Of a DNA stretch of 35,699 nucleotides, positions 31,213-35,644 are shown in pieces; within the stretch, counting starts at the first letter, position 1, and each line of letters begins with the position of its first letter. The notes beneath the pieces are model-generated. The model did no database searches and was not told the DNA's origin. It saw only the letters and a list, made by a program, of their open reading frames with translations. The DNA comes from Candidatus Polarisedimenticolia bacterium (GTDB taxonomy: Bacteria > Acidobacteriota > Polarisedimenticolia > Gp22-AA2). The translations under genes were made by a program, and so were the position numbers. The stretch covers positions 1-35,699 of the forward strand of contig DASYUH010000088.1 in assembly GCA_036001465.1 (NCBI GenBank), in the 5' to 3' direction.

Positions 31213-34200
31213 CTACGCCGCCGACTCCACCGCCATCGCCAGGGCCTTGCCGAGATCGGCGGCGGTCTGGAAGCGCTGATTCCGATCCGGGGCGAGGGCG
31301 CGGAGGATCGCGTCGGACAGCGGGCGGGGCAGGGTCTTGTCCAGCGTGTGCGGTGGCTGGGGACGGGCGGAGAGGTGCTTCATGAGGATTTCCTGGATGT
31401 CCTTGCCGTGGAACGGCTCGACGCCGGTGAACAGGTAATAGAGCACGGCGCCGAGGGAGTAGATGTCGGTGCGGCGGTCGACCCCCATCGCCTGGATCTG
31501 CTCGGGGGACATGTACATGGGAGAGCCTACGACGGCGCCGGTCGCGGTCAGGGTGTGGCCGGGGTTCTCGGGACGGGCGATGCCGAAGTCGAGGACCTTG
31601 GCGTCGCCGCCGGCGGACACCAGGATGTTCTCGGGCTTGATGTCCCGGTGCACGACGCCGATCTGGTGCGCGGCGTCGAGAGCGGTGGCAAGCTGCTGCG
31701 CGAGCCGCAGGCGGTCGCCGCGCCCCGGGGCCGGGCTCCTGCCCATCCAGCGGGGGAGCGAGACGCCGTCGATGTACTCCATGACGATGAAGCGGTGGTC
31801 CTGCCATTTCTCCATCGTGAAGACGCGCACGACGTTCGGGTGGTTCACCTTGCGCGCCGTCTTGATCTCCTGCACGAAGCGCGCGGCCAGGTCGGCGCCT
31901 ATCTCCCCTTTGAGGAACTTCAGCGCCACGGTCTCGTCCAGCTCCACGTCGCGCGCCCGGAAGATGGTCCCCATGCCGCCGCGGCCGATCTCGGCAAGGA
32001 CTTCGTAGCGGTTGGCGACGGTCATGCCGGGGACGATCTCCTTCAGCTCGAGATCGGCGAGGACGGCGCGCGCGTCGGGGTAGCGCCGTTCCTTGTCCTT
32101 CTCCATGAGGCGCAGGATGATCGCCTTGAGAAATTCCGGCAGCGGCCGCTCGCCGGGGCCGGGCAGCGGCACCTGGGCGTGCGCCTGCATCTGGCCGACG
32201 TCGCTCCCCTGGAAGGGGGGATGCCCGACCGCCATCTCGTACAGGACGATGCCGAGTGCATACAGGTCGGTGCGCTGATCGACCTTGTCCTTGAGGAGGA
32301 CCTCGGGCGGGGTGTACTGGATGATGCGCCCGGCCGAGAGCTCCTGGGTCGACAGGTCGGTCAGGCGGATGCCCAGGCCGAAATCGGACACGCTCACCTT
32401 GTCGTCGTCGGTGACGAAGATGTTCTCGGGGCGGAGATTGCGGTTCAGGACGCCGCGGCCGTGGGCGTGGTCGAGGGCTTGCAGGATCTGGCGGCCGATC
32501 TCGACGACCCGGTTCGCCTCGAAGCGCACCTTGCCGTCGAGGAGCGCGCGCAGCGTGCGCCCCTCGGCGAGGGCGGAAACGATGAAGCGGCCGGCCTCGT
32601 CGGCGCCGGTGTCATAGATCGACACGATGTTCGGGTGGCTGAGCTGGGCGGCGGTCGCCGCCTCCTTCAGGAAGCGGTCGGCCTTGCCGGTCTCGTTCGG
32701 CCCCTCGGCCAGGCGCCGCACGGCCACCTTCCGGCCCAGCTCGGTGTCGACTGCGCGGAAGACCTCGCCGAGCTTCCCCTTGCCGAGGGACTGCTCGATC
32801 CGGTAGCGGCCCGGCTCGGACCAGCCGCTCTCCTGGGTCTCCTGCCTCGAGCCGCCGCGCGCTCCCAGCATGGCCAAAGGCGTCTCCTCGATCGCCTTCA
32901 TGCGGGACAGGGCGTCCTTGTACGAGTAGTCGTACGCCACGATCTTCTGATACACGGGGAGCGCATCGCGCGGCCGCATGTTCCCCTCGTGGGCGAGCGC
33001 CAGGGAGTAGTGGATGAGCACCGTGTCGTCGTTGACGTCCTCGCCGTCGAGGGCGGCCTGGAACTTGTCGGCCGCCAGCGTGTGCAGTCCCTGCTCGGCG
33101 AAGATGCGGCCCAGAAGGAACGCCGCCTTGCGGAATTCCCGGTCCTCCGGCGTCACCTTCTGCAGCGCCTTGATGCAGGCGTCGTAGTTCTTCTTCTCGT
33201 AGTACAGGCGGGCGGCGGCGACCGGGTCCTCGGCCTTCATGTAGACGCGCGCCGCGTCCTCGGTCCTGCCGGCCTTGCGGTACAGCTCGGCGGCGTTCTT
33301 GAAGTCGCGCGCCGACTCGAACAGGCGCGCCGCGTCCTCGTGCTTGCCGGCGCGCACGTAGAGGTTGGCCGCCTGGTCGGTCTCGCCGTCCTTCTCGAAC
33401 AGGACCGCGGCGCGCAGCGGCTCGCCCGCTTCCTTCCAGGCTTCGGCGGCCTTGATCAGGACTCCCGCCGCCTCGAGGATCTCGGCCGCCTCGCGGTGCT
33501 TCCCCTGCCGCGTCAGGATCTCGGCCTGCACCCCCGGCGCCATGGACGACAGCTGTCGCCCCGATTCCTGCAGGATGCGGAACGCCTCTTCCGGCCGCTG
33601 CAGCTTCAGGAGAAGGTCCGCCGCCTTCTCGGCGTGGCCGGCCAGGCGCCAGGCCTCCGCCGCCTGGTCGAACATCAGCGCCAGCTCGAAGTGGGAGGCG
33701 GCCTTCTCGGGCCGCTCGAGCTTCAAATGCAGCTCGCCCGCGAAGCGGTGATACCTGAGGAGCATCCCGCGCTCCGCCTCGGAGCGAAAGCCCCCGGGGT
33801 CCTGCCGGTTGAGGTCCTCGATCAGTTCCTCGAACAGGGATGCGGCCAGCGCCTCCTGCCCCGCCTTGACGTACAGGATCGCCGCCTTGTCCTTGAAGCC
33901 CCCGCGCTTGTAATTCTGTGCCGCCGCGGCGTACTGCTCGGTCGACTCGAGGAGCTCGGCGGCCCGTCCGAACTGGCCGGCCTTGTTGAACATCCACGCG
34001 GCCTTGTCGCGGTTGTCCAGCTTGAGCTCGATCTCCCCGGCCGCCGCCAGGTCCCCCGCCTTCAGGTAATACAGGGAGGCGTTCGGCAGGTCCCCCATCT
34101 CTTCCGCGAGCCGGGCGGCCAGCTCGAAGTGGCTGCCCTTCAGGTACATCTCGTTGGCCAGCTTCCAGTCGCCCGCCAGGCGGTAGAAGTCCCCGGCCTG

Positions 34201-34434
34201 GTCGTAGTTGCCGGCCCTCGCCGCCTGCTTCGCCCTCTTCGAGTACTCCGCTGGTGTCGGTATGGGCGACTCCCCTTCCCTCGGGGGACGGGGCCGCCTT
34301 GAGGCGGCAGACCTCCCCCCTCGCGGTCCGTCCCGGCGGCAGAATCTAGGCCCCGGGAGGGCGGAGCGCCACCTTCCCGTGCACGGGGCCAGGGGGAACG
34401 AAGAGGGGCCGGGGAGGTCCGGACGGCATGGCAT
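31213..34434 (-). CDS. TPR-repeat protein with tandem pseudokinase and Ser/Thr kinase domains
   Basis: 1073 residues if begun at ATG 34434, with numbering from there. Residues of about 60-500 are short helical repeats (YLKAGDLAAAGEIELKLDNR, GQFGRAAELLES) of TPR type. Residues of about 542-795 form a first kinase domain with a glycine loop (LGKGKLGEVF) and DFG (Asp684). Its VAIK lysine is Arg573 and its HRD aspartate is Asn666 (LNRNLRPENIF), so it should be a pseudokinase. Residues of about 808-1065 are a second, intact kinase: Lys839, Asp931 (HRDIKPENIL), Asp949 (DFG). No transmembrane helix is visible, so it is cytosolic. The true start may be ATA at 34263 (before PTPAEYSKRA), where AAGGGGAG lies six bases upstream; the 57 codons before it look non-coding. 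Confidence 0.9.
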   Translation of the reverse strand: MPCRPDLPGPSSFPLAPCTGRWRSALPGPRFCRRDGPRGGRSAASRRPRPPREGESPIPTPAEYSKRAKQAARAGNYDQAGDFYRLAGDWKLANEMYLKGSHFELAARLAEEMGDLPNASLYYLKAGDLAAAGEIELKLDNRDKAAWMFNKAGQFGRAAELLESTEQYAAAAQNYKRGGFKDKAAILYVKAGQEALAASLFEELIEDLNRQDPGGFRSEAERGMLLRYHRFAGELHLKLERPEKAASHFELALMFDQAAEAWRLAGHAEKAADLLLKLQRPEEAFRILQESGRQLSSMAPGVQAEILTRQGKHREAAEILEAAGVLIKAAEAWKEAGEPLRAAVLFEKDGETDQAANLYVRAGKHEDAARLFESARDFKNAAELYRKAGRTEDAARVYMKAEDPVAAARLYYEKKNYDACIKALQKVTPEDREFRKAAFLLGRIFAEQGLHTLAADKFQAALDGEDVNDDTVLIHYSLALAHEGNMRPRDALPVYQKIVAYDYSYKDALSRMKAIEETPLAMLGARGGSRQETQESGWSEPGRYRIEQSLGKGKLGEVFRAVDTELGRKVAVRRLAEGPNETGKADRFLKEAATAAQLSHPNIVSIYDTGADEAGRFIVSALAEGRTLRALLDGKVRFEANRVVEIGRQILQALDHAHGRGVLNRNLRPENIFVTDDDKVSVSDFGLGIRLTDLSTQELSAGRIIQYTPPEVLLKDKVDQRTDLYALGIVLYEMAVGHPPFQGSDVGQMQAHAQVPLPGPGERPLPEFLKAIILRLMEKDKERRYPDARAVLADLELKEIVPGMTVANRYEVLAEIGRGGMGTIFRARDVELDETVALKFLKGEIGADLAARFVQEIKTARKVNHPNVVRVFTMEKWQDHRFIVMEYIDGVSLPRWMGRSPAPGRGDRLRLAQQLATALDAAHQIGVVHRDIKPENILVSAGGDAKVLDFGIARPENPGHTLTATGAVVGSPMYMSPEQIQAMGVDRRTDIYSLGAVLYYLFTGVEPFHGKDIQEILMKHLSARPQPPHTLDKTLPRPLSDAILRALAPDRNQRFQTAADLGKALAMAVESAA

Positions 34435-34458: not shown

Positions 34459-34800
34459 CTAGCGGCCCGGCGCCGCCTGGGTCCTGAAGGCCTGCTCGAC
34501 CAGGGGCTGAAGCTCCCCCTTCTGGTGCATCTCCATCACGATATCGCAACCGCCGATGAACTTGCCTCCCACGAAGACCTGCGGGATGGTCGGCCAGCTG
34601 CTGACCGAGGACAGGACCTGGCGGATGCGGGGGTCCGGGAGGACGTCCACCGTCTTGAACGGCTTCCCCAGCTCCTTGAAGACGGCGATGGTGCGCGCCG
34701 AGAAGCCGCACATCGGCATGTCGGCCGTCCCCTTGGTGAACAGGCAGATGGTGTTGGAATCGATTTCCTTCTTGATCATTTCGACGATGTCCTGCGACAT
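34459..34800 (-). CDS. grxD: Monothiol glutaredoxin, Grx4/GrxD type
   Basis: 113 residues. ATG 34800 follows GGAG. The CGFS active site (DMPMCGFSARTIAVF) marks the monothiol glutaredoxins that hold a [2Fe-2S] cluster with glutathione and pass it to carriers, not ordinary disulfide reductases. The glutathione-binding WPTIPQVFVGGKFIGGCDIVMEM segment is intact. The gene begins exactly where the bolA stop ends, so both are in one transcript; BolA and Grx4 form a cluster-bridged heterodimer in many organisms, which makes this a likely iron-sulfur delivery or iron-sensing pair. Confidence 0.96.
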   Translation of the reverse strand: MSQDIVEMIKKEIDSNTICLFTKGTADMPMCGFSARTIAVFKELGKPFKTVDVLPDPRIRQVLSSVSSWPTIPQVFVGGKFIGGCDIVMEMHQKGELQPLVEQAFRTQAAPGR

Positions 34801-35040
34801 TCAGATCTCCTTCTCCCATTCGGCCGGGGTGACGGTGCGCAGCTGCAGCGCGTGCACCTCTCCGCCGGCCATCTCCTTCCGGAACAGCGCGTAGATCATC
34901 TGGTGCTGCTCGATCCGAGTCTTCCCCTCGAATGCCTTGGCGACCACCACCGCGCTGAAGTGGGCCTCGGCCCCCTCGACGCGCGCCATGGCCCCGGGAA
35001 GGGCCTCTTCGATCCGTTCCTGCATCTCCTTCGGGTCCAG
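34801..35040 (-). CDS. BolA/IbaG-family protein
   Basis: 79 residues if begun at CTG 35040, 74 from ATG 35025. The sequence runs (M)DPKEMQERIEEALPG, HFSAVVVAKAFEGKTRIEQHQMIYALF, then EVHALQLRTVTPAEW: a complete BolA domain with the conserved helix-turn-helix-like His (EQHQMIY) that ligates the shared cluster with Grx4. Homologues often begin with Met-Asp-Pro, and a GGAAGGAG (35048-35055) stands seven bases before the CTG. The ATG at 35025 has its GGAG directly against it, with no spacing. The stop codon abuts the grxD start. Confidence 0.9.
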   Translation of the reverse strand: MDPKEMQERIEEALPGAMARVEGAEAHFSAVVVAKAFEGKTRIEQHQMIYALFRKEMAGGEVHALQLRTVTPAEWEKEI

Positions 35041-35077
35041 GTGGAATCTCCTTCCGGCCGGAACGGCGACTTGCGCG

Positions 35078-35644
35078 TCAGTTGATGCTGGCGTCGATCG
35101 CCAGGCTGGAATCGAGGCTGCACGACGTGTCGAGCCCGCCGATACCGTCGGAGTCGATCTCGACCGAATCGCATCCGCCGGACAGCGTTCCGTTGCTGAT
35201 GGTGAACGTGCCGATGCACTGGACGTAGAGCGCCTCGTCCGGATCCCAGACCCGCAGGAGCGCCAGGCAGGAATCGGCCTGGATCGTGCCGGTGACCTCG
35301 CGGTCGACCGTCGGGTCGTCACCGCTGTCGGTCCGGTCGGCGATGATCTGAAAGCTGGTGCTCCCGTCGCTCCCGAACACGTTGACGCCGTCAGGGCCCC
35401 CGTACGTCCGCGGGAAGTCATCGATCAGGATGGTGCCGCTGAGGCCCGGTGCGTCCCCCGTGCAGTTCTGCAAGGTGCGACTGGCTGACGTCATGTCGAT
35501 CGTCCAGTTTCCCACCAGGTCGTCGCGGATCAGGCCGCAGTCGATCCCCTGGTTGATGATGGTCGTGGTGTTGCCGTTGTCGTTGCAGCCCGCCAGCAGC
35601 GCCGTCCCGCCCAACAGTGCCAGCAGCGTGATTCGAGTTCGCAC
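35078..35644 (-). CDS. Lipoprotein of unknown function
   Basis: 188 residues from GTG 35644 with GGAGG upstream. Residues 1-20 (LLALLGGTALLAGC) are a lipoprotein signal with lipobox Leu-Ala-Gly-Cys20. The mature part is acidic, Thr/Ser/Asp-rich and beta-rich: a run NTTTIINQ, four or five cysteines likely in disulfides (CGLIRDDLVGNW, LQNCTG, ADSCLALL, LYVQCIGTF, GGCDSV), and an Asp-rich region near SDGIGGLDTS. I do not recognise the family. It lies 37 bases before the bolA start. At position 18-20 the signal is unambiguous; function is not. Confidence 0.8.
   Translation of the reverse strand: MRTRITLLALLGGTALLAGCNDNGNTTTIINQGIDCGLIRDDLVGNWTIDMTSASRTLQNCTGDAPGLSGTILIDDFPRTYGGPDGVNVFGSDGSTSFQIIADRTDSGDDPTVDREVTGTIQADSCLALLRVWDPDEALYVQCIGTFTISNGTLSGGCDSVEIDSDGIGGLDTSCSLDSSLAIDASIN

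Follow-up and report, generated by a model that had tools for sequence, protein, structure and literature searches.

Eukaryotes provide well-known cases of a pseudokinase and a kinase paired on a single polypeptide: the JAKs, GCN2, which carries RWD and HisRS-like accessory domains, and the plant tandem kinases. In the JAKs, the JH2 pseudokinase regulates the live kinase adjacent to it, has an Asn in place of the HRD aspartate and still binds ATP (PMC4718504). A pseudokinase and another kinase domain also share one polypeptide, in the same order, in GCN2 (PMC3014569). Bacterial pseudokinases, on the other hand, are almost unstudied (PMC12599244). The families ActPs1-3, GLW, CP1, DYD and DLHK have been described as having a kinase fold with lost catalytic residues, and the review that treats them uses none of the terms tandem, TPR or Acidobacter (PMC12599244). 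Surveys of bacterial kinase architectures report many TPR kinases, and the sections of these surveys considered here do not describe a pseudokinase-kinase pair (PMC1262709, PMC2877116). A search of the literature outside preprints and most subscription papers found no published bacterial tandem pseudokinase-kinase, which is weak evidence of novelty.

The window, which is the whole 35,699-nucleotide stretch of DNA analysed here, encodes a protein in which an N-terminal helical array is followed by a pseudokinase domain (K1) and, directly after it, by an intact kinase domain (K2). The open reading frame lies on the minus strand (31213-34434), a detail that the earlier note had left out, and encodes 1073 aa from an ATG at 34434, the codon from which residues are numbered here as in the earlier note. 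Pfam recognizes Pkinase twice in the protein, with 308.7 bits over the two stretches, and each domain is above the cut-off in a scan of the genome. K2 (residues 806-1067; 31234..32019, minus strand; Pfam 168.1 bits) is a PknB-like Ser/Thr kinase domain containing VALK839, HRDIKPEN (929-936, with HRD at 929-931) and DFG (949-951). Among the matches listed, the solved structure nearest to K2 is that of Mtb PknB (Z 34.5, 36% identity). The Pfam scan of the protein returned only kinase-fold and TPR/SNAP-type families, with no FERM, SH2 or PASTA domain; a score of 509 (cut-off 450) for the PASTA kinase model NF033483 arises from the two kinase domains. The Kyte-Doolittle hydropathy of the protein, averaged over 19 residues, peaks at 0.95, and no transmembrane helix is present. 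We favor the view that the protein is a PknB-like Ser/Thr kinase of the cytosol, with the pseudokinase K1 probably setting its activity or its choice of substrate in cis.

K1 (residues 541-795; 32050..32814, minus strand; Pfam Pkinase 148.3 bits) has a confidently assigned kinase fold. In the family alignment Arg573 (VAVR; 32716..32718, minus strand) takes the place of the VAIK lysine, and Asn666 that of the HRD aspartate, followed by Leu667 and by Arg668 at the position of the catalytic-loop Lys (32431..32439, minus strand). The catalytic loop thus reads N664-R-N666-L-R668-P-E-N671 (NRNLRPEN), where the change of the HRD His to Asn at residue 664 is found in the window's species only. K1 of the window's family retains the glycine loop (GKGKLG, residues 551-556), the alpha-C Glu (RFLKE), the metal-binding Asn671 and the DFG (residues 684-686; 32377..32385, minus strand). 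The earlier note had read Arg573, Asn666, a kept glycine loop and DFG, an intact second domain and a missing membrane helix from this sequence; all of these hold, and Arg668 is a third substitution beyond the two that it had listed. Having lost two of the three residues VAIK Lys, HRD Asp and DFG Asp, K1 is a pseudokinase by the sequence definition applied to bacteria. All other kinase domains of the same genome that are well aligned over the motifs retain the catalytic-loop aspartate as well as the VAIK lysine, which makes K1 an exception in its genome and not a chance variant; a short, poorly aligned kinase fragment (L164) reads HID. The lost residues suggest that K1 is catalytically inactive. 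They do not prove it, since the JH2 domain of JAK2 has low activity (PMC4718504).

The earlier note had called the arrangement JAK-like. The likeness stands for the domain order, in which a pseudokinase immediately precedes an active kinase on the same polypeptide, and for the Asn where the HRD Asp is expected, as in JAK JH2 (PMC4718504). It does not extend to JAK membership: where the JAKs have FERM and SH2 domains this protein has a solenoid, the active JAK domain is of the tyrosine-kinase type whereas K2, with HRDIKPEN, is nearest to PknB-type Ser/Thr kinases, and the VAIK Lys retained in JAK2 JH2 is Arg in K1. Because it lacks FERM and SH2 and has a Ser/Thr-type K2, the protein is not a JAK. 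The likeness to GCN2 is likewise one of domain order, the accessory domains being different. PknB/Stk1-type kinases are nearest to K2, but the protein in the window is without their PASTA domains and membrane helix and adds a second, dead domain and the N-terminal solenoid. Like K1, the DYD pseudokinases have Arg in place of the VAIK Lys (PMC12599244); they have lost the alpha-C Glu and are membrane-associated, whereas K1 of the window's family retains this Glu in a protein without a membrane helix. On these features the protein does not fit the DYD family, the one bacterial pseudokinase family tested.

Relatives were sought in 60 related genomes, 41 genomes of the class and 119 of the phylum; a scan of contigs from all bacteria, which reaches close relatives only, gave four close relatives. 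The solenoid-K1-K2 protein, or identifiable pieces of it, is found in 37 Acidobacteriota genomes from at least 10 families, with seven genomes in the window's family, 11 in family f4 and 19 elsewhere in the phylum. K2 retains its VALK, HRD and DFG motifs wherever these are covered. The HRD aspartate of K1 is absent from 36 of the 37 genomes, the exception being L104, and the VAIK lysine is absent from 34 of the 36 that cover it (present only in L104 and L115); all covering members of families f1 and f4 have Arg at this position (L102 does not cover it). The window's family is uniform, with VA[IVL]R and [HN]RNLRPEN in 7/7 members and HRNLRPEN in the six relatives. K1 of family f4 has V-x-L-R, and ARN, ART, ARS, ARV or CRT where HRD is expected. 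In more distant families K1 also loses parts of the DFG and the glycine loop, and its alignment there is less certain. Orthologues that keep both Lys and Asp would, according to the earlier note, have pointed to a single damaged gene; a single damaged gene is ruled out by orthologues with the same K1 losses, and the pseudokinase directly before an active kinase is an architecture conserved across these genomes.

Five proteins of the same phylum (L008, L009, L107, L110 and L128) combine an N-terminal helical array with one intact kinase and lack K1; as L008 and L009 consist of a solenoid and a single kinase, some solenoid kinases can do without K1. Another protein, L126, is of a different kind, with two adjacent kinase domains and all catalytic motifs in both.

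Within the window's family, dN/dS estimated by a simple counting method is 0.11-0.31 for K1, 0.11-0.25 for K2 and 0.12-0.36 for the solenoid, and K1 is under purifying selection similar to that on K2. In a quick tree the K1s and the K2s form two separate groups with parallel branching inside each; the K1 branches are long between families, and by branch length K1 evolves faster than K2 across families. This faster evolution, together with the probable loss of catalytic residues more than once, is what might be seen if K1 were a decaying duplicate kept merely by sharing the reading frame of K2. Such decay is very improbable given a K1 dN/dS well below 1, a K1 length that is kept in relatives across the phylum, and a D-to-N and K-to-R state that is fixed in the whole window's family. 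Taken together, the dN/dS values, the grouping of K1s and K2s and an ungapped junction between the domains indicate that K1 is being preserved, in a constant position relative to K2.

The K1 domain of L104 (genome G018, of the same class) contains GRGSYG, VAVK, the alpha-C Glu, HRDIRPEN and DFG, and looks active apart from the catalytic-loop Arg that is common to its relatives. The whole-protein tree places L104 just outside a group of the window's family, f4 and f5, with modest support (81/74). Judging from this one sequence, K1 was probably once active and was then inactivated repeatedly; if activity was not regained, L104 implies that K1 was inactivated at least once in the class and separately in other classes. 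Beyond its DFG, the K2 domain of L104 is interrupted by what looks like a frameshift, perhaps an artefact of the assembly.

The K1-K2 junction (residues 788-812, ...LELKEIVPGMTVANRYEV; 31999..32073, minus strand) runs for 25 residues from the last helix of K1 to the first strand of K2. An alignment of 36 sequences contains no insertion or deletion in it, and its Pro-Gly is mostly conserved, a pattern more suggestive of a defined geometry than of a loose tether. In the AlphaFold2 model of the K1-K2 tandem (pLDDT 88, pTM 0.71) both domains are kinase folds and the junction is ordered, and we are moderately confident of the predicted arrangement of the two domains. The full-length model (pLDDT 85, pTM 0.43) does not fix the placement of the solenoid relative to the kinases, in view of its low pTM. 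Foldseek and VIA-align ranked single kinase domains first; no JAK or GCN2 entry was among the matches listed, and none of the solved tandems there reproduced the geometry of the model. The sole listed match spanning both domains was EGFR-KDD (rmsd 13.5), from a search that ranks single domains first; as single kinase domains are what the search returns, the missing JAK or GCN2 match is no evidence of difference.

It is conceivable, if rather unlikely, that K1 is a docking platform, recruiting or positioning either a substrate or another molecule of the same protein while the intrinsic activity of K2 is unchanged. The strong divergence of K1 between families with its fold retained, seen in the long branches, would be expected for lineage-specific partners, and TPR arrays of bacterial kinases have been linked to the control of substrate phosphorylation, as in PknG (PMC8546545). 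The defined geometry suggested by the indel-free junction speaks against a docking platform.

In the window's family K1 may still bind ATP, since the glycine loop, alpha-C Glu, Asn671 and DFG are retained, and it might then act as a nucleotide-sensitive switch. The same residues, present in L082-L087, would also serve an unconventional active enzyme, at least in this family: a weak kinase or an ATP-dependent transferase such as an AMPylase. Pseudokinases with other activities do exist, for example SelO and SidJ (PMC12599244). Even so, such an enzyme is improbable, and as several of these residues are lost in most other families its activity could not be the conserved function. For the same reason, what K1 does in common across the families is probably protein-protein contact and not the binding of nucleotides.

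The N-terminal region is mainly an alpha-solenoid of 13-residue single-helix repeats (residues 58-430; 33145..34263, minus strand), identified by autocorrelation, AlphaFold2 and Pfam. Autocorrelation of its sequence peaks at 13, 26, 39 and 52, and in the AlphaFold2 model (pLDDT mostly 85-95) helices, most of them 10 residues long, alternate regularly with 3-residue turns. About two TPR units of ordinary length, recognized by longer helices in the model, join it to K1 (residues 431-520; 32875..33144, minus strand). The Pfam families SNAP and TPR_WDR35 exceed the cut-off on the helical array, TPR models are near the cut-off and mostly below it, and gamma-SNAP, IFT144 and IFT140 are weak matches to the solenoid. 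The array is probably for the most part not TPR in the strict sense of 34-residue repeats. Of the roughly 440 residues of TPR-like repeats reported earlier, the helical region itself is upheld, but it spans about 480 aa, has mainly a 13-residue period and includes only about two TPRs. A kinase coupled to a TPR array is also seen in PknG of actinobacteria, where the array ties signal detection to substrate phosphorylation (PMC8546545); PknG, however, has its TPRs at the C-terminus and a single kinase domain, while the protein in the window has an N-terminal solenoid and two kinase domains.

The true start of the kinase gene is probably codon 58, an ATA at 34263-34261, giving a probable coding sequence of 31213..34263 (minus strand) and a solenoid-pseudokinase-kinase protein of 1016 aa. 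This placement is drawn from the onset of conservation at that codon and from L087, which has an in-frame stop 9 codons upstream of codon 58 and no ATG, GTG or TTG between this stop and residue 96. Across the six family members covering the region, codon 58 is always ATA or ATT, and it is precisely there that coding-type conservation sets in. Differences at codon positions 1/2/3 within the window's family amount to 0.18/0.13/0.37 of comparisons for residues 58-95, the same as for residues 96-200 (0.20/0.15/0.38), and conservation collapses upstream of codon 58 (0.55/0.43/0.67 for residues 30-57). By sequence reading, a Shine-Dalgarno-like GGGGAG (34270..34275, minus strand) lies 6 nt before the ATA codon, and L082-L085 and L087 have comparable purine runs, similarly spaced, the spacing in family members being about 6-8 nt. 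A near-cognate start, of which infC is a known case, would be the simplest reading of the pattern at codon 58. Distant relatives such as L114 and L115 seemingly use an ATG start. An open frame of 984 codons on the plus strand (31348-34302), antisense to the kinase gene, is probably a shadow of GC-rich coding sequence.

Adjacent BolA and glutaredoxin genes (34459-35115, minus strand) lie just upstream of the kinase gene on the same strand, and this pair is common to the window's family only. Families f14 and f39 have PhoH/PIN, DUF4390 and an NtrY-like histidine kinase (identified in L139) downstream, conserved together (L139, L143-L146), and families f31 and f46 have UbiD upstream. No partner or substrate gene is common to all families in the neighborhoods compared, and the differing neighbors thus suggest no common partner or substrate.

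We infer allosteric control of K2 in cis by a K1 that is itself inactive; that inference also covers the contact between the two domains, the direction of the control and the role of the solenoid as input. The solenoid would bind a partner, substrate or ligand. The last K1 helix would continue through the fixed-length junction into K2, so that the two domains probably move together. K1, while transferring no phosphate, would determine how active K2 is or how substrates reach it. There is about an even chance that these proteins form a bacterial family spanning the phylum, with the pseudokinase as the allosteric switch of the adjoining Ser/Thr kinase and an origin independent of JAK and GCN2. 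Bacteria would then appear to have evolved on their own a built-in kinase regulator of the kind known from human JAKs. The conserved bacterial pair, together with L104, would be an independent case of a dead kinase becoming a regulator and, as K1 of L104 still looks active, would open the loss of catalysis to stepwise study. The pair also offers a concrete target for asking whether pseudokinases control bacterial Ser/Thr kinases in cis.
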